From Streptomyces liliiviolaceus (lineage in GTDB: Bacteria; Actinomycetota; Actinomycetes; Streptomycetales; Streptomycetaceae), in assembly GCF_018070025.1 (NCBI RefSeq), contig NZ_JAGPYQ010000001.1:2976001-3040000 (forward strand): a stretch of DNA of 64,000 nt, in the 5' to 3' direction. The notes under the pieces are model-generated. The model made no database searches, had not been told where the DNA came from, and saw only the letters and a program-made list of their open reading frames with translations. The first letter of the stretch is position 1. Each line of letters opens with the position of its first letter. Positions 49,652-64,000 of this stretch are shown here, one piece after another. The position numbers and the translations under genes were made by a program.

Positions 49652-49677
49652 GGGGTGGGGCCCGGTGGGGGTTGCTT

Positions 49678-50064
49678 GCGCCGTTCCCCGCGCCCCTGAA
49701 AGCCAAAAGATTGCGCCGTTCCCCGCGCCCCTGGGGGTGGGGTGGTTGGGGTTGGGTTTCGGGTGCGGGGCGGTGGGGGCTTGTCGCGCAGTTCCTCGCG
49801 CCCCTGGGGGGTGGGGGCTGGCGTGTGGGGGACGGGTGGCGGTTGTCTGTGGCTGGCCGCGCCGTTCCTCGCGCCCCTGAGGGCAAAAGCTGGGGCGCAG
49901 CCCCGTTTTTGAGGGGCGCGGGGAACTGCGCGCTCAGCCACGACGTGCCCGCACCCGGCGACGGCCCCGCGCCCCCCCAGGGGCGCGGGGAACTGCGCGA
50001 TCGGCCACGATGTGCCCGCACCCGGCGACGGGCCTCCGCCCCCCAGGGGCGCGGGGAACTGCGC
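49678..50064. repeat. Family A repeat array between XRE gene and second DHA2 gene
   Basis: Seven arms occur: 49678, 49713, 49786 and 49859 in one orientation, and 49913, 49980 and 50046 in the other (each 19 nt). The array fills the 438-nt gap between convergent genes. The segment ~49801-49963 is nearly the same as ~52867-53030 on the other side of the DHA2-dusB pair. No coding signal was seen. Confidence 0.85.
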
Positions 50065-50089
50065 GGCCAGCCCCCGCCGGGCCGCAGGT

Positions 50090-51532
50090 TCATGCGATGC
50101 CCGCGGACTCCTTTACCTCTGGTGAGGACAGGCGGGACGCCGTGCGCACGGCCGTTCCGCGCGCCCAGCGTCCGCTGGACACCGCACCCACGACCAGCAC
50201 TGAAAGCCCGCACGCCGTGATGATCCACCACGCGGGCCGGGCCGCCGAGACGAACGCGGCGCGGTAGGACGACTCGCCGACGCCCGACGCGAGGACCGCC
50301 CCGATCACCGCGACCCCCAGCGTCTGCCCGATCTGCCGGCTCGTGGACGCGACGGCCGCCGCCACCCCGGCCTGGGCACGGGGCATGCCCGACACCGCCG
50401 TGTTCGTGATGGGCGCGTTCACGAAACCGAAGCCCAGCCCGAACAGCACGTACCCGATGACCAGCGTCACGTCCGCCGTCTCGGCCTCGAACGCGGCGAA
50501 CAGCACCCCGCTCACCGTCATCGCCGTACCGGCGATCAGGAGGGAGAGGCGGGGCCCCCGGTTGCCGACCAGCCGTCCGGACAGCGGCGCGCAGACGAAC
50601 GTCATCGCCGCCATGGGCAGCATCCACAGGCCCGCGTCGAGCGCGCTCAGCCCCCGGACGTTCTGGAGGTAGAGGGTGGACAGGAAGAGGAAACCGCCCA
50701 GCGCCGCGAACGCGCTGACCGCCACCACCGTGGCCCCGCTGAACGGCGCCGACCGGAAGAAGCGCAGGTCGATGAGGGGTTCGTCGCGCCGCGGCTCGTA
50801 CCAGAGGAGGGTGACGAGCGCGGCGAGCGCGATCCCGCCGAAGACGAGGATCTTGCCGGCGCCCGAGCTGGGCGCCTCGATGATCGCGTAGGTGAGGGAG
50901 CCGAGCAGCGCGATCACCAGGAGCTGGCCCACCGGGTCGGGGCGCCGCGCCTTGGGCGCGCGGGACTCGGGCACGTACCGCAGGGTGAGCAGGAGCGCGG
51001 CCAGGCCCACCGGCAGGTTGACCCAGAAGATCGAGCGCCAGCCGACCGAGTCCACGAGGAGGCCGCCGACCAGCGGGCCCGCGGCCATGGATATGCCGAC
51101 CACCGCGCCCCAGACCCCGATCGCGCGGGCGCGTTCGCGCGGGTCCGTGAAGGTGTTGGTGATGATCGACATGGCGACCGGGTTGAGCATCGAGCCGCCG
51201 ACCGCCTGGATCATGCGGAAGGCCACGAGCGATTCGAGGTTGGGTGCGAGCGAGCACAGGACCGAGCCGACGGTGAAGACGACCAGGCCCGCCATGAAGA
51301 CCTTGCGGCGGCCGATGCGGTCGGCGGTCGAGCCCGCGAGCATCAGCAGCGAGGCGAGCACCAGCGTGTACGCGTCGATCGTCCACTGCATGCCCGCCAG
51401 GCTCGCGTGCAGATCCTTCTGCATGGAGGGGAGGGCGACGTTGAGGACGGTGTTGTCGAGGCTCACGATCAGCAGACTCATACAGCAGATCGCGAGCACC
51501 AGCTGGCGCCGGCGGGGGCTGAGCTCAGGCAT
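50090..51532 (-). CDS. DHA2 family MFS drug exporter (second)
   Basis: A 480-aa EmrB/QacA-type antiporter with 14 hydrophobic segments. It begins with LVLAICCMSLLIVSLDNTVL and has VLNVALPSMQKDL, SLLMLAGSTADRIGRRKVFM and GWRSIFWVNLPVGLAALLLT, typical DHA2 motifs. It is distinct in sequence from the exporter at 47.2 kb, so this is not a recent duplication. It is divergent from dusB across an inverted repeat (51556-51581). The substrate is unknown. Confidence 0.92.
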   Translation of the reverse strand: MPELSPRRRQLVLAICCMSLLIVSLDNTVLNVALPSMQKDLHASLAGMQWTIDAYTLVLASLLMLAGSTADRIGRRKVFMAGLVVFTVGSVLCSLAPNLESLVAFRMIQAVGGSMLNPVAMSIITNTFTDPRERARAIGVWGAVVGISMAAGPLVGGLLVDSVGWRSIFWVNLPVGLAALLLTLRYVPESRAPKARRPDPVGQLLVIALLGSLTYAIIEAPSSGAGKILVFGGIALAALVTLLWYEPRRDEPLIDLRFFRSAPFSGATVVAVSAFAALGGFLFLSTLYLQNVRGLSALDAGLWMLPMAAMTFVCAPLSGRLVGNRGPRLSLLIAGTAMTVSGVLFAAFEAETADVTLVIGYVLFGLGFGFVNAPITNTAVSGMPRAQAGVAAAVASTSRQIGQTLGVAVIGAVLASGVGESSYRAAFVSAARPAWWIITACGLSVLVVGAVSSGRWARGTAVRTASRLSSPEVKESAGIA

Positions 51533-52815: not shown

Positions 52816-53138
52816 GCGCAGTTCCCCGCGCCCCTGAAAGACAAAAGACTGCGCCGTTCCCCGCGCCCCTGGGGGGGTGGGGGCTGGCGTGTGGGGGGCG
52901 GGTGACGGTTGTCTGTGGCTGGCCGCGCAGTTCCCCGCGCCCCTAAGGGCAAAAGCTGGGGCGCAGCCCCGTTTTTGAGGGGCGCGGGGAACTGCGCGCT
53001 CAGCCACGACGTGCCCGCACCCGGCGACGGGCCTCCGCCCCCCCCAGGGGCGCGGGGAACGGCGCGCTCAGCCACAGGCAACCGTCAGTTGTCCCACGCA
53101 CCCCAGCCCCCACCCCCTAGGGGCGCGGGGAACTGCGC
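52816..53138. repeat. Family A repeat array after dusB
   Basis: Six arms occur: 52816, 52851 and 52925 in one orientation, and 52979, 53047 and 53120 in the other. The array covers most of the 551-nt gap between dusB and the ferredoxin gene. Part of it (~52867-53030) duplicates the array before the DHA2 gene. No coding signal was seen. Confidence 0.85.
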
Positions 53139-53176
53139 GAACCGGCCCCCACCGACCCGCACCCGCCCCCACCCCC

Positions 53177-53217
53177 TTGACCCCACCCCCATTGCTTCCT
53201 ACCTTGTTTGGGGTCAA
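53177..53217 (+). promoter_or_regulatory. Promoter with dyad for the catabolic operon
   Basis: TTGACC (53177-53182) and TACCTT (53200-53205) are spaced 17 nt apart, a good sigma-70-type promoter. TTGACCCC (53177-53184) also pairs perfectly with GGGGTCAA (53210-53217), so the core promoter lies inside a dyad. A MarR gene at 61.4 kb is a possible regulator. The ferredoxin ATG is at 53331. Confidence 0.6.
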
Positions 53218-53330
53218 ATGAAATGGGGGGAGGGGGCGGTCCCGAGCCGCTCCACCGGCCGGGCCCGCCCTCAGGGTCCGAGTCCCCGTCCGTTCCCCTC
53301 CGACGTGACACGTCATCTGGAGGACCGGCC

Positions 53331-53519
53331 ATGAAGGTCGTCGTCGACATGAACAAATGCCAGGACCACGGCCAATGCGTGTTCGCCGCTCCCGACGTCT
53401 TCCGCTTCGACGACGACGGACATCTGGTCCACCTCCCGGACGCCGACGACACCCGCCGCGAGGAGGTCGAGGAGGCCGCCGACGTCTGCCCGCTGCAGGC
53501 CATCCGGATCGGGGACTGA
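53331..53519 (+). CDS. [3Fe-4S] ferredoxin
   Basis: A 62-aa electron carrier of the P450-associated Streptomyces type. Three cysteines are placed for a 3Fe-4S cluster: C10 and C16 in KCQDHGQC (with His13 at the position of the missing fourth Cys) and C53 in VCPLQAI. The ATG has GGAGG upstream. It is first in the operon, followed after 3 nt by a ferredoxin reductase. The P450 at 62-63 kb is the likely partner. Confidence 0.95.
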   Translation: MKVVVDMNKCQDHGQCVFAAPDVFRFDDDGHLVHLPDADDTRREEVEEAADVCPLQAIRIGD

Positions 53520-53522
53520 CGC

Positions 53523-54785
53523 GTGAACGCAGCCGCAGCCGTAGCCGCAACCGCAGCCCAACCCCCCGTCGTCGTCGCCGGCGCCTCCATGGCCGGGCTG
53601 CGCACCGCCGAGCAACTCCGCGCCGCGGGCTGGCGCGGACCGGTCGTCCTCGTCGGGGACGAACCCCACATGCCCTACAACCGGCCCCCGCTGTCCAAGG
53701 AGGCCCTGGCGGGCGACGCCTCCTTCGGCTCGCTCACCTTCCTGCCGCGGGCCAGCGTCGCGGACGTACGGTGGCGCCTGGGCACCCGGGTCGTCGCGGC
53801 CGACCTCGACCGGCGGACCGTCACGCTCGACGACGGCGGGACGTTGACGTACGCGGGACTGGTGGCGGCCACCGGGATGCGTCCCCGGCGGCTGCCCTGC
53901 CCCGGCCCCCGCCGCGGACGGCACACCGTGCGCACCGTGGCCGACGCCCGCGGGCTGCGCGCGGCGCTGGCCCGGCCGGGCGGCCGCGTGGTCGTCATCG
54001 GCGCCGGATTCATCGGCTGCGAGGTCGCCGCGACCGCCCTGGCCCTCGGCGCCGCCGAGGTCACGGCCGTCGACCCGCTGCCGCTGCCCATGGTCGGGCC
54101 GCTCGGCGAACTGCTCGCGAAGGCGCTGCTCGACCGGCACGAGCGGCGGGGCGTCCGGTTCGCCCTCGGCGCCCAGGTGACCGGGTTCGAGGGCGACGAC
54201 CGGGTCACCGGGGTGGTCCTCGCCGACGGCACCGTCCTCGCCGCCGACGTCGTGGTGGAGTCGGTGGGCTCCGTCGCCAACACCGAATGGCTCGACGGCA
54301 ACGGCCTCGACCTCACCGACGGCGTCCTGACGGACGAGCATCTGCGGGTCGGCGGACGCCCGGACGTGGTCGCCGTCGGTGACATCGCGCGCTTCCCCAA
54401 CGCCCGTTACGACGAGGTCGCGCGCCGCGTCGAGCACTGGTCCATCCCCACGGACACCGCCAAGCACGCCGCCAGGGTGCTCACCGCCCATCTCACCGGC
54501 ACCGGCATCACGGTCGAACCCTTCGCGCCCCTGCCGACCTTCTGGAGCGACCAGCACGACTTCCGGCTGCAGTCCTTCGGCGCCCCCGCCCTGGGCCAGG
54601 ACGACGTGCGCGTGCTGGACGGCGACCCCGGCGGCGACTTCCTGGCCGGGTTCCACCGGGGCGGCCGGCTCGTCGGTGTCGTCTCCCTCGGCGGCCGGTC
54701 CACCTCGGCCGCCGCCGCCCGCCACCGCGCCGAACTCCTCGCCCAGCCCGCCCTCGGGGCCGGATCGTCCGGGGGGCCCAAGTGA
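53523..54785 (+). CDS. NAD(P)H-dependent ferredoxin reductase (FAD)
   Basis: A 420-aa flavoprotein of the rubredoxin/putidaredoxin-reductase type. The FAD motif is GASMAGLRTAEQLR near residue 20, and the NAD(P) motif GAGFIGCEVAATALALG is near residue 160. The FAD-ribityl motif is VVAVGDIARFP. The C-terminal reductase domain contains PTFWSDQHDFRLQSFG. The first 13 residues come from a GCAGCC-rich simple sequence. The GTG start follows the ferredoxin stop by 3 nt. It probably passes electrons from NAD(P)H to the ferredoxin and then to the P450. Confidence 0.93.
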   Translation: MNAAAAVAATAAQPPVVVAGASMAGLRTAEQLRAAGWRGPVVLVGDEPHMPYNRPPLSKEALAGDASFGSLTFLPRASVADVRWRLGTRVVAADLDRRTVTLDDGGTLTYAGLVAATGMRPRRLPCPGPRRGRHTVRTVADARGLRAALARPGGRVVVIGAGFIGCEVAATALALGAAEVTAVDPLPLPMVGPLGELLAKALLDRHERRGVRFALGAQVTGFEGDDRVTGVVLADGTVLAADVVVESVGSVANTEWLDGNGLDLTDGVLTDEHLRVGGRPDVVAVGDIARFPNARYDEVARRVEHWSIPTDTAKHAARVLTAHLTGTGITVEPFAPLPTFWSDQHDFRLQSFGAPALGQDDVRVLDGDPGGDFLAGFHRGGRLVGVVSLGGRSTSAAAARHRAELLAQPALGAGSSGGPK

Positions 54786-55588
54786 CCGGTCTGCGCGGCT
54801 ACTTCCACCCCAAGACGGCGACGGGCGCAGCCTCGCTCATCCCCGCGCCGCCGTGGCGCTACTCCGGTGATCTGCTCACCGTCGAATACCGCACCGACCC
54901 CGACCGCGTACGGGAGCTGCTGCCCGAGCCGCTGGAACCCGCCGCCGAGGACCCCGGCGCCGTCGCGCTCATCTGGGCCGACTGGCAGTCCTGCGCCGAC
55001 TCCGGGCGGGAACTGCTCGACCCGGTGCGGGCCCAGTACAAGGAGGCGTTCGCCGTCGTGCGGTGCGCGTACCGGGGGCGGACGTACACGCGCTGTGTGT
55101 TCATCTGGGTCGACAAGGACTTCGCCCTCGCCCGCGGACTGCACCAGGGGTATCCGAAGAAGCTCGGTTCCATCCACCAGACCCGCCCGCACCCCTACGG
55201 GCCCGCCCCGCGCATCGAGGCCGGGGCCAGGTTCGGGGCCACCCTCGCCGCCGCCGACCGGCGCCTGGCCCAGGCCGTCGTCACCCTGCGCGAGCCCTGC
55301 GACTCCAACGGGTTCGTCAACGCCCACCCGATGGTCCACCACCGCTGGCTGCCCTCCGTCGAGAAGGGCAAGGGGCTGGCGCTCGACGAACTGATCGAGT
55401 CCGGGGCCGCGTCCTTCGAGGGCGGTCGACCCTGGACGGGGGAGGCCGAGTTGGAGCTGTTCGAGGCGCCCACCGAGGAGCTGGCCCGGCTGGAGATCCG
55501 GGAGCCGATCGCCGCGTACTACCGGCAGGTCGGCGTGGTCTGGGACGGGGGCCGGCTCCTGGAGTCGGGCACCTCCGGCGCCGAATGA
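54782..55588 (+). CDS. Acetoacetate decarboxylase family protein
   Basis: A 268-aa ADC-family protein. The catalytic Lys pair is conserved as K126/K127 in QGYPKKLGSI, the Schiff-base lysine region of acetoacetate decarboxylase. The N-terminal ASLIPAPPWRYSGDLLTVEY and the HHRWLPSVE segment fit the family. Members include true beta-keto decarboxylases and Schiff-base aldolases/dehydratases, so the reaction is open. A role in decarboxylating or hydrating a ring-cleavage product is possible from context. The GTG overlaps the reductase stop (GTGA). Confidence 0.85.
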   Translation: MTGLRGYFHPKTATGAASLIPAPPWRYSGDLLTVEYRTDPDRVRELLPEPLEPAAEDPGAVALIWADWQSCADSGRELLDPVRAQYKEAFAVVRCAYRGRTYTRCVFIWVDKDFALARGLHQGYPKKLGSIHQTRPHPYGPAPRIEAGARFGATLAAADRRLAQAVVTLREPCDSNGFVNAHPMVHHRWLPSVEKGKGLALDELIESGAASFEGGRPWTGEAELELFEAPTEELARLEIREPIAAYYRQVGVVWDGGRLLESGTSGAE

Positions 55589-55662
55589 ACCCCGCCGCGG
55601 CCCCGCACTGACGCGCGGCGCCCCGACAACCGGAGCCCCACGACACGAGGGAGCCCCACGAC

Positions 55663-57210
55663 ATGAGCGAACACCTCACCACCGTCGCCGGAGTCGCCGT
55701 CGACACCCGGCACTTCATCGGCGGCGAGCGGATCGCCGCCACCGAGACCTTCACCGACGTCTCACCCATCGACGGCACCCCCCTCGGCGAGATCGCCCGG
55801 GGCACGGGGACGGACGCCGCCGCGGCCGTCGCCGCCGCCAAGGCCGCCTTCCCGGGCTGGGCCGCCACCCCGCGCGCCGAACGCGCCCGCCTCCTCGAAG
55901 CCGTCGCCGACGGGGTGGAGAAACGACTCGAAGAACTCGCCGTCGTCGAGACCCACGACAACGGCGCCCTCCTGCGCTCCCACCGCCGAGGTGTGATGCC
56001 GCGCGTGGCGCACAACTTCCGCTTCTTCGCCGACCGGCTGCGGACACTGGGGCACGAGGACTTCGAGACCTGCGGCCACACCCAGCACGTCAGCTGGGAC
56101 CCCGCGGGCCCGTGCGTACTGATCACCCCGTGGAACGCCCCGCTGCTGCTCGCCACCTGGAAGGCCGCCCCGGCCCTCGCCGCCGGCGGCACGGTGATCC
56201 TGAAACCCTCCGAATGGTCCCCGCTCACCGCCTCGCTGCTCGCCGACATCGCCACCGCGGCCGGCCTGCCACCCGGGGTCCTGAACGTCGTACAGGGGTA
56301 CGGTCCCGAGGTCGGCGCCCCCCTCGTGGCGCACCCGGAGGTGCGCCGCGTCAGCTTCACCGGGTCCGTGCCGACGGGCCGGCGCATCGCCGCGTCGGCC
56401 GCCGCGCACCTCACCCCGCTCAGCCTCGAACTCGGCGGCAAATCACCGCTGTTGGTCTTCGCCGACGCGGACCTGGAGCTGGCCGTGGACCTCGCGGTGG
56501 AGCAGTACGACAACGCCGGACAGGTCTGTCTCGCGGCCACCCGCATCCTGGTCGAGGAGCCGGTGGCCGCGGAGTTCGGCCGCCGCCTCGCCGAACGGGC
56601 GGCCCGGCTGCGCCAGGGCGATCCGAGGGACGCGGCCACCGACCTCGGTCCCCTCGTCCATCCCCGCCAGCTGGAGAAGGTCGACGGGTTCGTGCGGCGG
56701 GCGCTGGCGGCGGGGGCCCGCGCGGTCGTCGGCGGTCACGCGGCAGGCGGTCAGCCAGCAGGCGGTCACCCGGCAGGCGGTCGCGCGGACGGCCGTGACC
56801 CCGGCGACGGTCGCGGCGCCGCGCGAGAAGGCGGCCTGTACTACCCGCCCACCCTCCTCACCGACGTCGCCCAGGACTCCGAGATCGTCCAGGAGGAGGT
56901 CTTCGGGCCCGTCCTGACCCTCCAGACCTTCACCACCGAGGACGAGGCCGTACACCTCGCCAACGACACCCGCTTCGGTCTCGCCGCCACCCTCGCCACC
57001 GGCGACCACGAACGGGCCCGGCGCGTCACCGCACAGCTCGTGGCGGGCACGGTCTGGGTCAACTGCTTCTACGTCCGGGACCTCCGGGCGCCCTTCGGCG
57101 GCTCCCGCCACTCGGGCGTCGGCCGCGAGGGCGGCGACTGGAGCTTCGACTTCTACTGCGACCTGAAGACCACCGTCACCGCACCGAACGGATGGACCGA
57201 CCATGGATGA
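55663..57210 (+). CDS. Aldehyde dehydrogenase, HpaE-like
   Basis: A 515-aa NAD(P)-dependent aldehyde dehydrogenase. Catalytic residues are C289 (NAGQVCLAA) and E256 (LELGGK). The C-terminal signature FYVRDLRAPFGGSRHSGVGR is characteristic of 5-carboxymethyl-2-hydroxymuconate-semialdehyde dehydrogenase (HpaE). That enzyme acts right after homoprotocatechuate ring cleavage, which the next gene could supply. Residues ~360-390 hold an extra Gly/Ala/His-rich insertion encoded by a 15-bp tandem repeat (56738-56795). The stop lies within a 25-bp triplication. Confidence 0.9.
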   Translation: MSEHLTTVAGVAVDTRHFIGGERIAATETFTDVSPIDGTPLGEIARGTGTDAAAAVAAAKAAFPGWAATPRAERARLLEAVADGVEKRLEELAVVETHDNGALLRSHRRGVMPRVAHNFRFFADRLRTLGHEDFETCGHTQHVSWDPAGPCVLITPWNAPLLLATWKAAPALAAGGTVILKPSEWSPLTASLLADIATAAGLPPGVLNVVQGYGPEVGAPLVAHPEVRRVSFTGSVPTGRRIAASAAAHLTPLSLELGGKSPLLVFADADLELAVDLAVEQYDNAGQVCLAATRILVEEPVAAEFGRRLAERAARLRQGDPRDAATDLGPLVHPRQLEKVDGFVRRALAAGARAVVGGHAAGGQPAGGHPAGGRADGRDPGDGRGAAREGGLYYPPTLLTDVAQDSEIVQEEVFGPVLTLQTFTTEDEAVHLANDTRFGLAATLATGDHERARRVTAQLVAGTVWVNCFYVRDLRAPFGGSRHSGVGREGGDWSFDFYCDLKTTVTAPNGWTDHG

Positions 57211-57262
57211 GAACGGACGGCTGGACCATGGATGAGAGCGGACGGCAGGACCATGGGTGAGA
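57198..57262 (+). repeat. 25-bp tandem triplication at the ALDH/dioxygenase junction
   Basis: ATG codons at 57203, 57228 and 57253 lie exactly 25 bp apart inside near-identical units (GGACCATGGATGAGA... forms). The first two open 10-codon ORFs ending in TGA at 57235 and 57260. The third is the dioxygenase start. Confidence 0.85.
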
Positions 57263-58215
57263 TCGTCGGGGCGGGTCTGCTCTCCCACGTCCCCACCATC
57301 GTGCTGCCCGAGGCCGACCGGCTGGAGCTCAACGAGGGCAAGGAGAGCACCCTCGTCACCGGACTGCGGCAGCTCCGCGACGACGTCTTCGCGTCCGACA
57401 GTTACGACACCGTCGTCGTCCTCGACTCCCACTGGGCGACCACCGTCGAGTTCGTCGTCACCGCCCAGCCCCGGCGCTCGGGCCTGTACACCTCCGAGGA
57501 ACTGCCGCGCGGGATGTGCCGGATGCCGTACGACTTCCCCGGCGACCCCGAACTCGCCCACCACGTAGCCTCGTTCGCCGACCGGCACGGCACCTGGATC
57601 ACCCCGATCGACGACCCCTACCTGCCCGTCTACTACGCCACGACCAACCTGTGGAAGTACCTCGGCGAGGGGCTGCCCGACAAACGGTGGGTCACCGTCG
57701 GCGTCTGCCAGACCGGGGACATGGACGACCATCTGCGTCTCGGCCGCGCACTGGCCGACGGCATCGCCGCCACGCCCGGCCGACGGGTCCTGCTGATCGC
57801 CTCCGGCGCCCTGTCGCACACCTTCTGGCCACTGCGGCAACTGCGCGACCACGAGGCGGGCGACCCGGAGCACATCTTCACCCCCGGGGCGCGGGCGGCC
57901 GACCAGGAGCGCATCGCCTGGTTCAAGGAGGGCCGCCACGACCAGGTCCTCGACCGCATGGACGACTTCTGGCCCCACAAGCCCGAAGCGAGGTTCTTCC
58001 ACTACCTGATGATGGCCGGGGCCCTCGGCGAGCGGGCCTGCACGGCGAAGGCCCGGCAGTACGGCGCGTACGAGAACGCCATCGGCACCGGACAGGTGCA
58101 TCTCTGGTTCGACCGCCCCGCGGACGGCTGGACGGGCACCGGCCCGCCGCCTCCGCCGGCCGCCGCCCGCACACCCCACAGCCGCGTCCAGCCGTCCGGC
58201 CGGTTGCCCGACTGA
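57253..58215 (+). CDS. Class III (LigB-type) extradiol ring-cleavage dioxygenase
   Basis: A 320-aa non-heme iron(II) dioxygenase of the LigB / HpcB superfamily that opens catechols next to the hydroxyls. The metal-site His residues are at GLLSHVPTI near the N-terminus and in DSHWATT. A later SGALSHTFWP carries the catalytic His, as in 3,4-dihydroxyphenylacetate 2,3-dioxygenases. Neighbours (HpaE-like, HpaG-like) support a homoprotocatechuate-like substrate. The C-terminal ~25 residues are Pro/Arg-rich. ATG 57253 is chosen over 57232 because it starts the conserved region. Confidence 0.88.
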   Translation: MGEIVGAGLLSHVPTIVLPEADRLELNEGKESTLVTGLRQLRDDVFASDSYDTVVVLDSHWATTVEFVVTAQPRRSGLYTSEELPRGMCRMPYDFPGDPELAHHVASFADRHGTWITPIDDPYLPVYYATTNLWKYLGEGLPDKRWVTVGVCQTGDMDDHLRLGRALADGIAATPGRRVLLIASGALSHTFWPLRQLRDHEAGDPEHIFTPGARAADQERIAWFKEGRHDQVLDRMDDFWPHKPEARFFHYLMMAGALGERACTAKARQYGAYENAIGTGQVHLWFDRPADGWTGTGPPPPPAAARTPHSRVQPSGRLPD

Positions 58216-58234
58216 CCCCAGGGAGGCTCCCGTC

Positions 58235-59110
58235 ATGCCCGAGTACCGCCGTGTCCTCCTCGACGGCTCCGTCGTGGAGACCGTCCGCGACGGCGACGAA
58301 CTGGTCGCCGGGGACGGGCGCCGCGTCAAGGCCGGGGAGGCGAACCATCTGCCGCCGGTCGTCCCGTCCAAGGTGATCGCGGTCCACCTCAACCACCGCA
58401 GCCGGGTCGAGGAGTTCGGGGCCGCGCTGCCCGCCGCCCCCACGTACTTCCACAAGCCGACCTCGGCGCTCAACTCCCACCGGGGCGCGGTCGTCCGGCC
58501 CGAGGGCTGCAAGTGGCTCAACTACGAGGGCGAGGTCGCCGTCGTCATCGGCAGGACCGCCCGCAACATCTCCCGCGCCGAGGCGGGGCGTTACATCGCC
58601 GGATACACCGTCGCCAACGACTACGGCCTGCACGACTTCCGCGACACCGACGCGGGCTCCATGCTCCGCGTCAAGGGCTCCGACACCCTCTGCCCGCTCG
58701 GCCCCGGCCTCGTCACCGACTGGGACTTCCACGGCAAACGGCTGCGGACCCACGTCAACGGGGCGGTCGTGCAGGACGGTTCCACCGACGAGATGACGTG
58801 GGACATGCACTATCTCGTCGCCGACATCGCCCGCACCATCACCCTGTACCCCGGTGACGTCCTGCTGTCCGGCACCCCGGCCAACTCCCGGCCCGTCCGG
58901 CCCGGTGATGTCGTCGAGGTCGAGGTGGAGGGCCTCGGCCGGCTCAGCAACCACATCGTCTCCGGTCCCACCGCCGTCCGCACGGACCTCGGCGCGCAGC
59001 CGAGCGAGTCCGAGGAAGTGCTGTCCACCGCGCTCGGCGGCGACTGGGAGTTCCGCGGCATCAGGCCACCCGAACGCAGGTCACCCGAACGCAGGCCACC
59101 CACACGCTGA
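58235..59110 (+). CDS. Fumarylacetoacetate hydrolase family (HpaG-like) isomerase/decarboxylase
   Basis: A 291-aa FAH-family enzyme. The divalent-metal site is seen as YEGEVAVVIG (two Glu) and the Asp in ANDYGLHDF; the KGSDTLCPLGP and LLSGTPANSRPVRPGD segments are typical. In the homoprotocatechuate path this family performs the OPET decarboxylation and HHDD isomerisation. The start at 58235 follows GGGAGG. The C-terminal RPPERRSPERRPP tail comes from a short repeat. It is 19 nt after the dioxygenase gene. Confidence 0.9.
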   Translation: MPEYRRVLLDGSVVETVRDGDELVAGDGRRVKAGEANHLPPVVPSKVIAVHLNHRSRVEEFGAALPAAPTYFHKPTSALNSHRGAVVRPEGCKWLNYEGEVAVVIGRTARNISRAEAGRYIAGYTVANDYGLHDFRDTDAGSMLRVKGSDTLCPLGPGLVTDWDFHGKRLRTHVNGAVVQDGSTDEMTWDMHYLVADIARTITLYPGDVLLSGTPANSRPVRPGDVVEVEVEGLGRLSNHIVSGPTAVRTDLGAQPSESEEVLSTALGGDWEFRGIRPPERRSPERRPPTR

Positions 59111-59119
59111 GAGGGCCGT

Positions 59120-60664
59120 ATGACCGCCGTCAGCCCCGCCGCCAAGCAGGTCACGCAGGTCACGTACGAGGAATGGCTCCGCCGCGCCAAAGCGCTCGAA
59201 CCGGTCGGTACGCATCTCATCGACGGTGCCGACGAACCCGGCGGCGGCAGTACCTTCGCGGTGGTCTCACCCCGCGACGGCCAGGTGCTGGCCGAGGTCG
59301 CCGACGGGGGCGAGGCCGAGATCGACGCGGCCGTCGCCGCCGCGCGCCGCGCTTTCGACCAAGGCCCCTGGCCCCGGCTCGCCCCCGCCGACCGCGGCCG
59401 CGTCCTGATCCGGCTGGCCGACCTGCTGGAGGAGCACCGGGCGGAGCTGGCGCTCACCGTCAGCCTGGAGATGGGCAAGCCCGTCACCGAGGCCCACGAC
59501 ATCGAACTCCGGGCCGTCGTCGGCACGTTCCGCTGGTACGGCCAGCTCGCGGGCAAACTCACCGACGAGATCCCGCACACCGCCCCGGACACCCTCGCGC
59601 TCGTCACCCGGGAGCCCGCCGGTGTCGTCGGCGCGGTCGTCCCGTGGAACTTCCCGCTGACCCTGGCCGGCTGGAAGATCGCCCCGGCGCTGGCCGCCGG
59701 GTGCACGGTCGTCCTCAAGCCCTCCGAGCACGCGCCGCTGTCGGCCGCGCTGCTGGGACGCGTCGCGCTGCGCGCGGGACTGCCGCCGGGCGTCCTCAAC
59801 GTCGTCAACGGCGAAGGGCCGGTGGCCGGGCGGGCCCTCGGTCTGCACCCCGAGGTCGACGTCCTGGCCTTCACCGGGTCCACCGCCGTCGGCCGCCACT
59901 TCCTGCACCACGCGGCCGACTCCAACCTCAAGCGCGTCTGGCTCGAACTGGGCGGCAAGTCGCCCAACATCGTCCTGCCCGACGCCCCCGACCTGGCGAA
60001 AGCCGCGGCCACGGCCGCCTGGGGCATCTTCTTCAACCAGGGCGAGATGTGCACCGCCCCCTCCCGGCTGCTGGTCCACGCCTCCGTCGCCGAACAGGTC
60101 ACCGACGCCGTCGTGGCGCACGCCCGCGCGCTGCGGGTGGGTGACCCGCTCGACCCGGCCACCGAGATGGGGGCGCTGGCCGGTGAGGGCCATCTCGACC
60201 GCGTACTCGGTCATGTCCGCGCGGCGGTCGACAGCGGGGCGCGGCTGCGGACCGGCGGCGCACGCGCCCTGATCGGGACCGGGGGCGGCTCCGGGTGCGG
60301 TTCCGGTGGCAGCTATCTGGAACCGACCGTCCTCGACCGCGTCGCACCGGACAGTCCGCCCGCGCGCGAGGAGATCTTCGGACCCGTCCTGTCCGTTCTC
60401 GCCTTCGAGGACCTCGACGAGGCGGTCGCCCTCGCCAACGCCACCGACTACGGGCTCGCGGCCGGGCTGTGGACCTCCGACCTGTCCACCGCCCACCGGG
60501 TCGCCCGCGCCCTCAAGGCCGGCACGGTGTGGGTCAACTGCTACGAGGAGGGCGACCTGACCGTGCCCTTCGGCGGGGTGAAGCGGTCCGGCAACGGGCG
60601 CGACAAGTCCGTACACGCCCTGGAGAAGTACACCGAACTGAAGACCACCTGGATCCAGTTGTGA
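59120..60664 (+). CDS. Aldehyde dehydrogenase, PuuC-like
   Basis: A 514-aa aldehyde dehydrogenase with C311 (GEMCTAP) and E276 (LELGGK). Its C-terminus GDLTVPFGGVKRSGNGRDKS followed by HALEKYTELKTTWI is close to E. coli PuuC (gamma-glutamyl-gamma-aminobutyraldehyde dehydrogenase) as I recall it. The N-terminal YEEWLRRAKALEP also fits that group. This differs clearly from the HpaE-like enzyme upstream. It is coupled by a GTGA overlap to a PuuD-like hydrolase, which supports action on a gamma-glutamylated aldehyde. A Gly/Ser-rich insert (GGGSGCGSGG) lies near residue 395. Confidence 0.9.
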   Translation: MTAVSPAAKQVTQVTYEEWLRRAKALEPVGTHLIDGADEPGGGSTFAVVSPRDGQVLAEVADGGEAEIDAAVAAARRAFDQGPWPRLAPADRGRVLIRLADLLEEHRAELALTVSLEMGKPVTEAHDIELRAVVGTFRWYGQLAGKLTDEIPHTAPDTLALVTREPAGVVGAVVPWNFPLTLAGWKIAPALAAGCTVVLKPSEHAPLSAALLGRVALRAGLPPGVLNVVNGEGPVAGRALGLHPEVDVLAFTGSTAVGRHFLHHAADSNLKRVWLELGGKSPNIVLPDAPDLAKAAATAAWGIFFNQGEMCTAPSRLLVHASVAEQVTDAVVAHARALRVGDPLDPATEMGALAGEGHLDRVLGHVRAAVDSGARLRTGGARALIGTGGGSGCGSGGSYLEPTVLDRVAPDSPPAREEIFGPVLSVLAFEDLDEAVALANATDYGLAAGLWTSDLSTAHRVARALKAGTVWVNCYEEGDLTVPFGGVKRSGNGRDKSVHALEKYTELKTTWIQL

Positions 60665-61416
60665 GCGCCCGCCCGCTGATAGCGGTCCCCGCCCGCTTCT
60701 CGGCGACCTCCTCGGCCCTGGACCGGCCGGCGGAGGCCAACGCCCGCGCGCTGATCGAGGCGGTCTGGCGGGCCGGCGGCGAACCGGGCGGCATCCATCC
60801 GCACGCGCCCGGCGGCACGGCCGACCCCGGCGAGGTGCGAGGCCGGCTCGCCCGCTTCGACGGCCTGCTGCTGCCGGGCGGCGGCGACCTGGCCCCGTAC
60901 CGCTACGGGGCCGGGCGGACGCACCGGGCCGTGTACGACGTGGACGACGAGCAGGACGGCTTCGACCTGGAACTCGCCCGGCAGGCCCTCGCGTGCCGCC
61001 TGCCGCTGCTGGCGGTCTGCCGCGGGCTGCAGGTCGTCAACACGGCCCTCGGCGGCACACTGCACCAGGACAACCAGGGGGGCGGTCAGGACACCGGCGG
61101 TCCCGGGCACGGGCACCGTCATGTGCGGCACCCCGTCTTCCTCGCGCCCTGGTCCGTCGTGGCCCGTGTCACCGGGACCGACAAGACCGAGGCGTCCTGC
61201 TACCACCATCAGCACGTGGACCGGCTGGGGGAGGGGCTCAAGGCCACCGCCCGCGCCGTCGACGGAACCGTGGAGGCCGTCGAACTCGCCGACGGCGACG
61301 ACCGGTTCATGGCCGTGCAGTGGCATCCGGAGGACACCGCGCGCACGGACCCGGCCCAGCAGCGGCTCTTCGACGCGCTGGTGCGGGCGGCACGGCGGAG
61401 GGCCGAGCGCGAATAA
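60661..61416 (+). CDS. Gamma-glutamyl hydrolase, PuuD-like (peptidase C26)
   Basis: A 251-aa class I glutamine-amidotransferase-like hydrolase. The catalytic triad is C120 in LLAVCRGLQVVN with H222 and E224 in VQWHPED. PuuD-type enzymes release glutamate from gamma-glutamyl-GABA. The GGGDLAPYRYG and YHHQHVDRLG segments fit this group. The GTG start overlaps the PuuC-like stop. It is the last gene of the + strand operon, facing the MarR gene 12 nt away. Confidence 0.9.
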   Translation: MSARPLIAVPARFSATSSALDRPAEANARALIEAVWRAGGEPGGIHPHAPGGTADPGEVRGRLARFDGLLLPGGGDLAPYRYGAGRTHRAVYDVDDEQDGFDLELARQALACRLPLLAVCRGLQVVNTALGGTLHQDNQGGGQDTGGPGHGHRHVRHPVFLAPWSVVARVTGTDKTEASCYHHQHVDRLGEGLKATARAVDGTVEAVELADGDDRFMAVQWHPEDTARTDPAQQRLFDALVRAARRRAERE

Positions 61417-61428
61417 GGGGGGCGGGTT

Positions 61429-62001
61429 TCAGTTACGGGCGCGGCGGCCGCTGCGACGGGGGGTGGCCGCCGCGCCGTTCAGCAGTTCCCGGCGCCGGTC
61501 CTCGCCGTGCTCCTCGACCTGGAGCACCACGCTCCGCAGCCCGTCGGCGAGCGTGCGGCACTCGGCGTCGCTCAGCCGCGAGGTGACGAAGGCCTCCTCC
61601 TCGTTGAACGCCGGGAACACCTCCCGCATGAAGTTCTCGCCCTCCTCGGTGAGGCCGAGCAGGACGAGCCGCCCGTCGGTGGGATGGTCGGCGCGGCGCA
61701 GCAGACCGCGGGACTCCAGGGTGCGGGCCACGCCGGTCAGGGTGCCCTTCGAGATCCCGGCCTCCTCGGCGACGCGCCGGGTCTCGGACTCGCCCCACAC
61801 CCACACCACCCAGAGCACGACGAAGCCGGTCCAGGTCAGGTCCGAGCGCCGCAGTACGGAGTTCTCCAGGTGCTGGCGCACGGCGGACGCGGCCCGGTAG
61901 ATGTTGGCGACCGCCGCCATCTGGTCGCGCCGGACGGGGATGCCGCCGAGTTTCTCCGCCGCGAGTCTCTCCGCCGCGCTGATGGACCGCTGGCTGGGCA
62001 C
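61429..62001 (-). CDS. MarR family transcriptional regulator
   Basis: A 190-aa winged-helix regulator. The DNA-binding region contains RRVAEEAGISKGTLTGVART and the wing DHPTDGRLVLLGLTEEGE (D-x-R of the MarR wing). The N-terminal SISAAERLAAEKLGGIPVRRDQM extension is longer than usual. The GTG at 62001 has AGGGAG. A dyad at 62052-62072 lies 51 nt upstream and is a likely autoregulatory site. MarR proteins in such loci commonly sense an aromatic or CoA/glutamyl intermediate. Confidence 0.93.
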   Translation of the reverse strand: MPSQRSISAAERLAAEKLGGIPVRRDQMAAVANIYRAASAVRQHLENSVLRRSDLTWTGFVVLWVVWVWGESETRRVAEEAGISKGTLTGVARTLESRGLLRRADHPTDGRLVLLGLTEEGENFMREVFPAFNEEEAFVTSRLSDAECRTLADGLRSVVLQVEEHGEDRRRELLNGAAATPRRSGRRARN

Positions 62002-62051
62002 GGGCGCTCCCTCGCATCGTCACCGGACCGCCGTCACTGCCGACGCACGGC

Positions 62052-62072
62052 CGTAGGGCATCGAATCCTACG
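62052..62072 (-). promoter_or_regulatory. MarR operator candidate
   Basis: CGTAGG (62052-62057) and CCTACG (62067-62072) are perfect arms around 9 nt, in the gap between the P450 stop and the MarR start. A related TCCTACC occurs in the operon promoter (53198-53204). Confidence 0.5.
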
Positions 62073-62117
62073 TGGCCGGTACAAGGCGGTCGCCGAAGCC
62101 GGTCGCCCTGCCGCGCC

Positions 62118-63392
62118 TCACTTGAGCGTGACCGTCACGGGCAGTTCCTTGATGCCGTGGACGAAGTTGGAGCGGACCCGGCGGACCGGACCGCCGAGCC
62201 GGATGTCCGCGAGCCGCGGGATCAGTTCCTCGAACATGACGCGGATCTCGGTCCGGGCGAGCAGGTTGCCCAGACACAGATGCGGGCTCGTCTTCCCGAA
62301 GGTGACATGGTCGTTGGGGGTGCGGGTCACGTCGAAGGCGTAGGGGTCGGGGAAGACGGCCTCGTCGCGGTTGCCCGAGGCGTACCACATGACCACCTTG
62401 TCGCCCCGCCTGATGCGGGTGCCGCTCAGCTCGGTGTCACGGGTCGCCGTACGCCGGAAGTGGTAGACGGGGGAGGCCCAGCGCAGGAACTCCTCGACGG
62501 CCACGGGGATCAGGGCCGGGTCGCGGCGCAGCAGGTCCAGCTGGTCGGGGTGGCGGGTCAGCGCCAGCATGGTGTGGCTGATGGCGTGGCGGGTCGTCTC
62601 GTTGCCCGCGACGACCAGGAGCAGGAAGTAGTTGTCGAAGTCCTGTTCCGTCAGCGGCACACCGTCGCGCGGGGTCCCGTTCACGAGCCGCGAGACCAGG
62701 TCGTCGCCGGTGCCGCCCCGCCGCTGCCGGGCCAGTTCGCGTCCGTACGCGAAGACCTCGGTGGCGGCGGGGGAGCGGAAGGGCAGATCGCGGTAGCGCT
62801 CGCTCTCCGGGCTGCCGAGCAGGACGTCCGCGTAGTCCGGGTCGGTGTTGCCGATGATGCGGTTGCCCCAGTCGATGAGCCGCCGGTTGTCCTCGGGCGG
62901 CACGTCCAGGAGACGGGCCAGGACGTTGATCGGGAAGTCGGCCGCGACATGGGTGACGAAGTCGAACGTGCCCAGCGGCAGCGCCGCGTCCAGCGTGCGG
63001 GCGGTCAGACCGCGCAGGAAGTCGGTGTACCGGCTGATGACGGTGTGCCCGAACTGCCGTTGCAGCAGCCCGCGCAGCGCGCGGTGCCGGACCCCGTCGA
63101 GTTCCAGGATCGAGGCGCGCTTGGCGATCTGGTCGTCGTCGACCTCTTCGAGGTTGACGAACTTCGTCGAGGTGAAGGTGTCCGGGTCCCGGTCGACGGC
63201 GACGATGTCCCGGTGCCGGGTGAGCGCCCAGAAGCCCGCGTTGGGCGCGGCCTCGGGCTGCCAGTGGACCGGGTCCCGGTGCCGCAGCGTGTGGAACATG
63301 CGCCAGGGCCGCAGTTCGTCGGTGAAGCTGTCGAGGTCGGTGAGGTCGACGTCGTCGAGGGGCAGGGGTTCGACCGGGACGGGTGCGGCCAT
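62118..63392 (-). CDS. Cytochrome P450
   Basis: A 424-aa soluble bacterial P450. The I-helix oxygen motif is VVAGNETTRH, the E-x-x-R is in VEEFLRW, and the heme-binding loop is FGKTSPHLCLGNLLAR with Cys373. The C-terminus (VRSNFVHGIKELPVTV) and VYHFRRTATRDTELSG resemble the CYP125/CYP142-like group. The ATG at 63392 is followed by a PVPVEPLPLDDVDLTDL start; a longer frame upstream overlaps the GS gene and is not used. Electron supply likely comes from the ferredoxin/reductase pair at 53.3-54.8 kb. Confidence 0.95.
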   Translation of the reverse strand: MAAPVPVEPLPLDDVDLTDLDSFTDELRPWRMFHTLRHRDPVHWQPEAAPNAGFWALTRHRDIVAVDRDPDTFTSTKFVNLEEVDDDQIAKRASILELDGVRHRALRGLLQRQFGHTVISRYTDFLRGLTARTLDAALPLGTFDFVTHVAADFPINVLARLLDVPPEDNRRLIDWGNRIIGNTDPDYADVLLGSPESERYRDLPFRSPAATEVFAYGRELARQRRGGTGDDLVSRLVNGTPRDGVPLTEQDFDNYFLLLVVAGNETTRHAISHTMLALTRHPDQLDLLRRDPALIPVAVEEFLRWASPVYHFRRTATRDTELSGTRIRRGDKVVMWYASGNRDEAVFPDPYAFDVTRTPNDHVTFGKTSPHLCLGNLLARTEIRVMFEELIPRLADIRLGGPVRRVRSNFVHGIKELPVTVTLK

Positions 63393-63442
63393 CGAGGTCT
63401 CCTTGGGGTCGGGCTCTCGGCTTGCGTGCATCGGGGGGCGGC

Positions 63443-64000
63443 TCACAGATGGTCGGCGTACTCGGCCAGTTCCCAGTCGGTGACGTGCTGATGGAAGCGG
63501 CTGACCTCGTCGCGCTTGTAGGTGACGTACGCGGAGACGAACTCCTTGCCGAGGAGCCGGGTGAGGTCGGTGTCCGCCTCCAGGGCGTCGAGCGCGGCGG
63601 GCAGACTCGCGGGCAGCAGCGGCGCCGACGCGGTGTCGTAGCCGTACCCCTTGAGCGGCGCGGGCGGCTCCACCGCGTCCCTGACACCGAGCAGGACGGC
63701 CGCGCTCGTGGCGGCGACCAGCAGATACGGGTTGGCGGCGGCGTCCCCCAGCCGCAGTTCGAGCCGCGCTCCCGCCCCGCGCTCGGGCGGTACGCGGACC
63801 ATGGCACTGCGGTTGTCCAGGCCCCAGTCGATCAGCCACGGGGCGAGCGTGTCGGGGCCGAAGCGCTTGTACGAGTTGACCGTGGGGTTCAGCAGCGCGG
63901 CGAGCGCCGGGGCGTGCGCGAGGAGACCGGCCACGGCGTGCAGGGCGGTGGCCGACAGACCGTACGGGCCCGCCGGGTCGTCGAAGGTGTTGCCGCCCTC
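63443..64000 (-). CDS. Glutamine-synthetase-like enzyme (C-terminal part)
   Basis: C-terminal ~185 residues of a glutamine-synthetase-fold ligase; the frame runs off the right edge. Recognisable GS landmarks are LNPTVNSYKRF and a catalytic-Arg region LDNRSAMVRVP, then ELRLGDAAANPYLLVAA. The ADALEADTDLTRLLGKEFV segment is typical of the tail. With PuuC- and PuuD-like genes nearby it is more likely a gamma-glutamylamine (PuuA/GlnA3/GlnA4-type) synthetase than a classical GlnA; no adenylylation motif can be judged from this part. It is upstream of and cotranscribed with the P450 (50-nt gap). Confidence 0.9.
   Translation of the reverse strand, partial: EGGNTFDDPAGPYGLSATALHAVAGLLAHAPALAALLNPTVNSYKRFGPDTLAPWLIDWGLDNRSAMVRVPPERGAGARLELRLGDAAANPYLLVAATSAAVLLGVRDAVEPPAPLKGYGYDTASAPLLPASLPAALDALEADTDLTRLLGKEFVSAYVTYKRDEVSRFHQHVTDWELAEYADHL

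Follow-up and report, generated by a model that had tools for sequence, protein, structure and literature searches.

A gene cluster at the right-hand end of a 64-kb stretch of Streptomyces liliiviolaceus DNA (the window, G000:C1:2,976,001-3,040,000, in a genome of 11.1 Mb) probably encodes the catabolism of an arylethylamine, most likely tyramine and/or dopamine, with a gamma-glutamyl cap that would stay on the amine through ring opening and with gamma-aminobutyric acid (GABA) as the end product, the substrates and reactions assigned here being predictions drawn from gene content, protein families, linkage and catalytic residues. The cluster is arranged as two divergent blocks, with eight genes on the + strand (53,331-61,416) and genes for a MarR regulator, a cytochrome P450 and a glutamine synthetase (GS)-like ligase on the - strand. 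The gene list given in a preliminary description of this DNA was correct: all of the genes named there were found as open frames, each in the expected family, and both C-terminal motifs quoted for the two aldehyde dehydrogenases (ALDHs) were found in the translations. The genes of the cluster and those just beyond it, in window numbering, are as follows.

53331..53519, + strand: ferredoxin of the single Fe-S cluster type, proposed redox partner of the P450 (PF13459/PF13370)
53523..54785, + strand: FAD ferredoxin reductase (PF07992, PF14759)
54782..55588, + strand: acetoacetate-decarboxylase-like protein (ADC), proposed pyruvate hydratase/aldolase replacing HpaH and HpaI (PF06314)
55663..57210, + strand: HpaE-like ALDH (ALDHe), proposed ring-cleavage semialdehyde dehydrogenase (Aldedh, PF00171)
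57253..58215, + strand: LigB-type extradiol dioxygenase (LigB), proposed to cleave a glutamyl-capped catechol (PF02900)
58235..59110, + strand: single-domain FAH protein, proposed decarboxylase like the HpaG C-terminal domain (FAA_hydrolase, PF01557)
59120..60664, + strand: PuuC-like ALDH (ALDHp), proposed gamma-glutamyl-gamma-aminobutyraldehyde dehydrogenase (Aldedh, PF00171)
60661..61416, + strand: PuuD-like C26 hydrolase, proposed gamma-glutamyl-GABA hydrolase, start codon inferred (Peptidase_C26, PF07722, 156 bits)
61429..62001, - strand: MarR-family regulator, start codon inferred (PF01047)
62118..63392, - strand: cytochrome P450, proposed hydroxylase of gamma-glutamyl phenylethylamine (PF00067)
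63443..64000, - strand: GS-like ligase, 3' part inside the window, which cuts the gene; it continues to 64,798, the whole gene being 63,443-64,798 (PF00120, 321 bits)
65,200-66,738, beyond the window: APC permease
66,778-67,521, beyond the window: second C26 hydrolase
67,658-68,287, beyond the window: isochorismatase-type hydrolase

In the route that we propose, the amine would be taken up by the APC permease or, in relatives, made from tyrosine or DOPA by a linked decarboxylase, and the GS-like ligase would join it to glutamate at the expense of ATP to give the gamma-glutamyl amide. The P450, with the ferredoxin and reductase, would form the 3,4-diol (gamma-glutamyl-tyramine to gamma-glutamyl-dopamine), a step that would be skipped for a catechol substrate. 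LigB would then open the ring with the cap still on, ALDHe would oxidize the resulting semialdehyde, the FAH protein would carry out the decarboxylation, and ADC would hydrate and split the chain to give pyruvate and gamma-glutamyl-gamma-aminobutyraldehyde. From there ALDHp would form gamma-glutamyl-GABA, the PuuD-like C26 hydrolase would release GABA and glutamate, and a GABA transaminase and a succinic semialdehyde dehydrogenase (SSADH) would complete the route; these last two enzymes would correspond to an aminotransferase and a further ALDH encoded beside LigB in family f16 (the Egicoccus family).

Carbon counting provides the join between the two arms. According to the available portion of PMC12718150, the homoprotocatechuate route takes an aryl-CH2-COOH substrate to pyruvate and succinic semialdehyde by oxidation, decarboxylation, hydration and retro-aldol cleavage. 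In our own atom mapping, which follows this established chemistry, the ring opens beside the carbon that bears the side chain, and the CH2-COOH group supplies the distal carbons of succinic semialdehyde; a CH2-CH2-NH-gamma-Glu side chain in its place would give pyruvate and OHC-CH2-CH2-CH2-NH-gamma-Glu, the substrate of PuuC. We place ALDHp at the end of the pathway because this predicted ring-cleavage product is the PuuC substrate, ALDHp is the best PuuC match, and its gene adjoins that of the C26 hydrolase. With the Puu enzymes at the pathway end, the missing PuuB would leave no gap.

Comparison with characterized enzymes indicated that the dioxygenase and its partners look like a homoprotocatechuate-type ring-cleavage set, in agreement with the preliminary description. 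LigB had TIGR02298 as its best NCBIfam model (112 bits; cut-off 316) and 8iq8, a 3,4-dihydroxyphenylacetate 2,3-dioxygenase, as its nearest solved enzyme, with a weaker match to 2-aminophenol 1,6-dioxygenase. His12, His60, His189 and Glu245 of LigB, which we take to be the active-site set, align with 8iq8 and are invariant in all 113 loci compared (80 close and 33 distant). ALDHe matched TIGR02299 best (516 bits; cut-off 638) and is 41% identical to E. coli HpaE and 39% to PuuC, and the FAH protein, with 1gtt as its best solved match, scored 209 bits against TIGR02303 (cut-off 276) and is 41% identical to HpaG over 204 residues. The nearest solved relative of ADC is MppR (4jm3), along with chains named acetoacetate decarboxylase, and its Lys126, within a PKK motif aligned with MppR, is the Schiff-base lysine of the acetoacetate decarboxylase superfamily; it is retained in all 80 close matches and in all 17 of the distant ones scored. 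HpaF, HpaH and HpaI were not found among the scanned cluster proteins, and in a genome-wide search that omitted HpaH and pyruvate aldolases other than HpaI, no HpaI match was found. Given a genome without an HpaI match, we propose ADC as the obvious stand-in for HpaI.

The genes of the other arm resemble those for gamma-glutamylated amines. The best solved match of ALDHp is 4lih, a gamma-glutamyl-gamma-aminobutyraldehyde dehydrogenase (560 bits), followed by KauB (531 bits), and among 38 matches to E. coli PuuC in the genome it ranks first (461 bits vs 383 for the next); it is 48% identical to PuuC and 40% to HpaE, and scored 535 bits against the NCBIfam PuuC model (cut-off 850) vs 440 bits against the aminobutyraldehyde dehydrogenase model. 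The PuuD-like C26 hydrolase had five solved matches, including PuuD (6vtv) and, as the best, 3fij, and its Cys-His-Glu triad is retained in all 72 scored close and all five scored distant matches; it scored 67 bits against the NCBIfam PuuD model (cut-off 266) and above the cut-off for PF07722. Identities to the E. coli proteins were 31% for the GS-like ligase and PuuA, 28% and 31% for the two C26 hydrolases and PuuD, and 23% over 226 residues for the permease and PuuP.

At the flap position of the GS-like ligase, 72 of the 75 cluster enzymes have Leu and the other three have Thr or Ile; in a comparison covering five of the nine PF00120 matches of the genome, L001 and L002, the two top-scoring GS paralogues, have Glu, and L003 and L005 have Phe. 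Glutamyl organic amide synthetases (GoaS) typically lose the flap Glu and Asp50', according to the accessible text of PMC11335346, and the flap Glu of glutamine synthetase is likewise absent from the cluster enzymes. We propose that the cluster enzyme ligates an organic amine to glutamate. Two other GS-like genes of this genome adjoin ALDH genes (G000:C1:5,323,788-5,331,830 and G000:C2:1,104,866-1,107,261), with genes for a DAO-family oxidase and for a copper amine oxidase close to the first as well, and these two loci may represent more typical gamma-glutamylation clusters.

Conservation of the cluster supports the earlier view that the two arms belong together, for which synteny across genomes had been named as a check. 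Public genome contigs were scanned with a LigB alignment, and the best 80 of 330 confirmed matches, which are Streptomyces/Kitasatospora loci and whose counts therefore describe close relatives, were compared with 14 cluster proteins by tblastn at an identity of at least 50%. ADC, ALDHe and LigB were present in all 80 loci, FAH in 79, GS in 75, ferredoxin, reductase and ALDHp in 72 each, C26 in 71, P450 and permease in 67 each, and MarR in 45. Within the 65 loci that had full 10-kb flanks (fully flanked loci), the seven core genes (GS, ADC, ALDHe, LigB, FAH, ALDHp and C26) were complete in 59 at 50% identity and 60% coverage, the six incomplete loci being L017, L029, L034, L038, L061 and L089; dropping the coverage criterion raised the count to 60 of 65, the difference being L029, whose GS is a 45% fragment. 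The prevailing order, found with or without MarR in 41 of the 65, was P450- GS- Fd+ FdR+ ADC+ ALDHe+ LigB+ FAH+ APC+ ALDHp+ C26+ (MarR-), where Fd and FdR are the ferredoxin and reductase, and the rearranged order of the window was also found in one locus, L010.

Sampling of 295 Streptomyces genomes gave a LigB match at E <= 1e-60 in 72, of which 65 had the close type (at least 75% identity) and seven formed a distinct clade at 58-61% identity. The four inspected members of this clade (L153, L154, L157 and L158, from G412, G451, G604 and G643), 54-60% identical in the locus comparison, lie in a different gene context with no GS and no P450; an asparagine-synthase-like gene (by eye) stands beside LigB in L153 and L157 and an HpaB-like gene in L154, L157 and L158, and the clade possibly serves biosynthetic catechol cleavage.

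The distribution of the P450 among these relatives separates it from the Puu-type genes. Every one of the 57 fully flanked loci with the P450 also had the ferredoxin and the reductase, and seven of the eight without it had neither; the P450 most likely works with these linked partners. The same seven P450-less loci retain ALDHp and C26, with a full-length GS in six and the 45% fragment in L029. Because loci without the P450 keep the PuuC-like ALDH, the C26 hydrolase and mostly a full GS, the P450 step looks peripheral and not the general source of the aldehyde used by ALDHp; the persistence of the PuuC- and PuuD-like genes in P450-less clusters led us to reject the P450 as the aldehyde-making step. 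A pyridoxal phosphate-dependent decarboxylase gene lies between FAH and ADC in three P450-less close loci (L029, L050 and L078). The best solved matches of the L050 enzyme are 6ebn, a non-canonical aromatic amino acid decarboxylase, and 5hsi, a putative decarboxylase, and among NCBIfam models it matched tyrosine decarboxylase best, far under the cut-off. Decarboxylated DOPA as a substrate would need no ring hydroxylation.

Linkage to decarboxylases recurs in distant Actinomycetota. A search of 396 genomes from the phylum gave a LigB match at E <= 0.001 in 61, from which the distant set takes 33 genomes outside the genus (LigB 44-59% identical) with up to 20 kb fetched around each match, leaving out the own-genus genomes G000, G182 and G023 and 25 distant genomes whose LigB matches were no stronger than E 1.9e-30. 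The gene table for these loci was made by tblastn and takes in some short contigs; a length of 15 kb was reached by only 22 of the 33 loci. LigB (33 of 33) was accompanied by ALDHe in 25, ADC in 18, P450 in 18 (three only 28-29% identical), GS in 17, FAH in 16, a decarboxylase in 15, a permease-like gene in 15, MarR in 13, a class III aminotransferase in 10, a further ALDH in nine, a class I GATase in seven, C26 in five and HpaB in one. GS, P450 and LigB occurred together in 13 loci with LigB 47-59% identical.

In 18 of the 33 distant genomes, LigB had a PF00282 (Pyridoxal_deC) gene no more than 12.2 kb away, with 1.07 expected at random placement. The associated probability of 3e-19 treats the genomes as independent, and the 18 genomes represent four families, with 11 in f15. 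Since shared descent inflates this probability, we give more weight to the diversity of the linked decarboxylases, which form separate subgroups (28-43% identical, with one pair at 67%). Those of L121, L122, L127 and L129 were confirmed as PF00282; the L127 enzyme had 4obu as its best solved match and tyrosine decarboxylase 1 (6eei) as the best with a named substrate. This linkage of aromatic amino acid decarboxylase-like genes favors the tyramine- or dopamine-like substrate named in the preliminary description. A decarboxylase gene in the genome of the window (L007:4551-6290), 12 kb from LigB, was rejected as a cluster member: its neighbor is, by eye, an adenylating-enzyme-like gene, its identity to the cluster decarboxylases is just 24-34%, and it does not enter the count of 18.

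One distant locus, L127 (G326), covers nearly all of the proposed route within 19 kb, with genes for the decarboxylase, GS, P450, LigB, ALDHe, FAH, ADC, PuuC-like ALDH, a GATase, an aminotransferase (confirmed as PF00202) and a further ALDH. Its family, f16, contains Egicoccus halophilus of the class Nitriliruptoria. A GABA-transaminase-like (class III) aminotransferase gene accompanied LigB in 10 of 12 f16 loci and was absent from the 21 other distant loci, and in the two f16 loci without it the further ALDH follows LigB.

Several observations weigh against the capped route to GABA. None of the cluster proteins scanned reached the NCBIfam curated cut-offs, which leaves it unproven that they are equivalent to HpaD/E/G and PuuA/C/D, and the identity of LigB to E. 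coli HpaD is only 27%. A CHMI isomerase is absent from the cluster, the only one lying 0.47 Mb away, and in Acinetobacter baumannii TH two FAH partners are needed for efficient decarboxylation (available portion of PMC12718150), compared with the one FAH gene of the window; the same source states that 5-carboxymethyl-2-hydroxymuconate (CHM) can isomerize spontaneously. Of four decarboxylases compared with the models, three had L-2,4-diaminobutyrate decarboxylase as their best match, with low scores, and the best model for the aminotransferase is a broad class and not GABA transaminase, both it and the further ALDH falling below the cut-offs of the specific models. The group to which ADC belongs catalyzes pyruvate aldol/dehydration chemistry, which is the reverse of the direction needed here.

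The P450 is the weakest link of the proposed route. Its nearest solved relatives are CYP125 MRCA (408 bits) and then CYP124 (279 bits), and the heme ligand Cys373 is conserved. CYP125 and CYP124 oxidize alkyl and steroid side chains, not phenol rings, and it is on account of these relatives that we consider this step the weakest. O-demethylation (of 3-methoxytyramine) or another hydroxylation by the P450 is a possible alternative to the step that we propose.

Further points of the same kind come from the distant loci. Only four of the 33 have a PuuC-like ALDH and eight a C26 hydrolase or GATase. In the 15 f15/f50 loci, ADC and FAH were found within the first 20 kb only in L151, and PuuC-like ALDH, C26 and GATase in none. 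ADC was found in 12 of these 15 genomes, in five of them (f15) on the LigB contig and 10-19 kb away. The five extended f15 stretches contained ADC in 5/5, close FAH in 4/5 (the fifth genome, G022, has a close FAH in L151), GATase in 2/5 and PuuC-like ALDH in 0/5. Thus, the ring-cleavage half is linked in f15 too and the PuuC step was not seen there. In addition, L131 (G057) has ALDHe, ADC, FAH, LigB and a PuuC-like ALDH together with HpaB and a flavin-reductase-like gene, with no GS, C26 or GATase at the locus and no GS in the 49 kb inspected (L131, L159 and L160, all G057). Because L131 has both without a GS, the ring-cleavage set and the PuuC-like ALDH are not bound to capped substrates, and the set with ADC may also serve a 4-hydroxyphenylacetate-type route.

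The order of steps given in the preliminary description differs from ours: the glutamylated amine would be oxidized, by a distant amine oxidase or by the P450 acting as an N-dealkylase, the PuuC-like ALDH would form an arylacetate, and this would be meta-cleaved to pyruvate and succinic semialdehyde. The presence of HpaE-, HpaD- and HpaG-type enzymes in the cluster and the gene content of L131 fit this order, and copper amine oxidases encoded elsewhere in the genome could act in trans under such a scheme. Nevertheless, it is unlikely, for amine oxidases are absent close by. It had been suggested that a PuuB-like oxidase or an amine permease might be found beyond 64 kb, and of these only an APC-type permease was there. 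No PF01593 amine oxidase was found within 0.49 Mb of the cluster, no match above 40 bits to the DAO family of PuuB (PF01266) within 0.58 Mb, and no copper amine oxidase within 2.2 Mb, the nearest lying at 2.28 Mb; PF01593 and DAO-family proteins are encoded elsewhere in the genome, and one 36-bit PF01266 match lies 25 kb past the window end. Moreover, P450-less clusters that keep the PuuC-like ALDH and C26 would have no linked oxidant, a glutamylated monoamine is blocked from oxidation at its nitrogen, the genome lacks an HpaI match, and the GABA-transaminase-like neighbor would be left unexplained. The PuuC/C26 pair is more readily placed in the last part of the pathway than in the first, and the preliminary description was right in its gene arms and substrate class and probably wrong in the order of the steps.

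A second alternative is that the cap is removed early, serving only the P450 step or detoxification, so that free dopamine would be cleaved and processed through 4-aminobutyraldehyde to GABA. There is a parallel in the aniline systems, in which a GAT-like enzyme hydrolyzes the gamma-glutamyl amide back to the amine (accessible text of PMC11335346). We regard early removal as distinctly improbable, given that a full GS and C26 are retained in six of the eight P450-less clusters and that ALDHp scores higher with the PuuC model than with the aminobutyraldehyde dehydrogenase model and has a gamma-glutamyl form as its best solved match. Free DOPA-type amines also cyclize onto the aldehyde produced by extradiol cleavage, as in the formation of betalamic acid and betalains, and a free amine would be expected to do so onto the semialdehyde here. 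In the capped route, by comparison, the gamma-glutamyl group would prevent this cyclization and leave the fragment as a ready Puu intermediate.

It is very unlikely that the substrate is instead an aniline-type amine, with the nitrogen on the ring, for which the P450 would replace a Rieske dioxygenase and yield a catechol or aminophenol for LigB while C26 controlled the level of gamma-glutamyl anilide. The layout of GS-like ligase, GAT-like hydrolase and oxygenase is as in the aniline/1-naphthylamine systems, and LigB does match 2-aminophenol 1,6-dioxygenase, more weakly; however, the PuuC-like ALDH beside C26 and the linked amino acid decarboxylases would go unexplained, and no Rieske protein was present among the ten cluster proteins scanned. 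That the two arms are unrelated catabolic modules brought together by chance in one genome, for which the divergent transcription and a permease position unlike that of most other loci might speak, is scarcely credible; a chance neighborhood is contradicted by the joint presence of the seven core genes in 59 of the 65 fully flanked loci, where their order varies, and by the recurrence of GS, P450 and LigB in the 13 distant loci.

The cluster behaves as though three known systems had been combined, and it has not been proven to belong to any of them. It shares with the Puu pathway of E. coli (PuuA, PuuB, PuuC, PuuD and PuuP) the GS-like ligase, PuuC-like ALDH, PuuD-like C26 hydrolases and APC permease, but it has no PuuB, and its gamma-glutamyl aldehyde is predicted to come from ring cleavage and not from putrescine. 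With the homoprotocatechuate (4-hydroxyphenylacetate) pathway, hpaBC-hpaGEDFHI, it has in common the HpaD/LigB-family dioxygenase, the HpaE-like ALDH and the HpaG-like decarboxylase, whereas HpaBC, HpaF, HpaH and HpaI are not in the cluster, which contains ADC and the P450 instead; the substrate of that pathway carries a carboxymethyl group, in contrast to the capped amine predicted here. The third system is aniline/1-naphthylamine degradation (TdnQ/AtdA1/NpaA1), in which, as far as the accessible text of PMC11335346 goes, a GS-like ligase, a GAT-like hydrolase, an oxygenase and ring cleavage are joined and glutamylation comes before oxygenation. The statement in the preliminary description that no described pathway has such a combination was thus too strong. 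The aniline systems use a two-component Rieske dioxygenase in place of the P450, and our cluster is predicted to keep its cap through cleavage and to have a Puu-type end.

Other Streptomyces enzymes and the P450 families offer narrower likenesses. S. coelicolor GlnA2, GlnA3 and GlnA4 gamma-glutamylate polyamines and ethanolamine, GlnA4 accepting only monoamines, and are likewise GS-like enzymes without glutamine synthesis; in the available portion of PMC8998196, from which this is taken, no GS-like gene is linked to ring cleavage. The cluster P450 is related by sequence to CYP125/CYP124-type enzymes and shares their heme-binding Cys. The accessible part of a study of dopamine and catechol as elicitors in Streptomyces (PMC9814775) does not mention glutamine synthetase and was of no help.

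Beyond the window, it is on balance plausible that these loci represent a widespread actinobacterial route from tyrosine/DOPA to pyruvate and GABA, capped through hydroxylation and meta-cleavage, joining the putrescine route and using an ADC-like hydratase-aldolase. An aromatic-to-GABA route with an N-acyl cap as a protecting group would be previously undescribed; no ring-cleavage route for gamma-glutamyl tyramine or dopamine was described among the open-access literature matches listed, which is not proof of absence. If the proposal is correct, two textbook pathways meet at one predictable metabolite by a natural protecting-group logic, soil actinomycetes own a dedicated tyramine/catecholamine-like route feeding pyruvate and GABA, and the ADC-like superfamily gains a catabolic role. 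Most of the database names shown for LigB are 3,4-dihydroxyphenylacetate or catechol dioxygenase, and these would then point at the wrong substrate.

Finally, some features of the cluster and its relatives fall outside this argument. The HpaR model scored 44.5 bits against the MarR regulator (cut-off 121). In six of seven relatives inspected (L013, L018, L021, L034, L082 and L083), a TetR-type regulator gene (by eye), which the window lacks, lies between FAH and the permease or ALDHp. Eight relatives (L021, L033, L035, L040, L049, L070, L084 and L087) have a second P450, 23-26% identical, inserted with its own ferredoxin between FAH and the permease; this second enzyme may broaden the range of substrates. 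Four P450-less loci (L018, L032, L069 and L083) have an extra ALDH gene upstream of GS, 44-45% identical to ALDHp, which in L018 is closest to phenylacetaldehyde dehydrogenase models with a score below the cut-off; in L018 and L083 it stands beside genes for a SnoaL-sized small protein and a dipeptide-type ABC transporter (by eye), and clusters of this kind may use another substrate. In five f15 loci (L164-L168, from G106, G160, G117, G037 and G022), a second, more distant FAH (36-46%) adjoins ADC in 5/5, and it may be the isomerase partner missing from the Streptomyces cluster.

Two further observations concern the sequence of the window itself. Within ALDHe, a Gly/Ala/Arg-rich low-complexity insertion at 56,700-56,830 (GGHAAGGQPAGGHPAGG...) divides the Pfam match in two. 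Open frames at 49,672-50,220 and 52,909-53,334, in intergenic stretches before the cluster, encode nearly identical GC-rich peptide segments, a sign that the intergenic DNA around the MFS and dus genes contains a repeated element.

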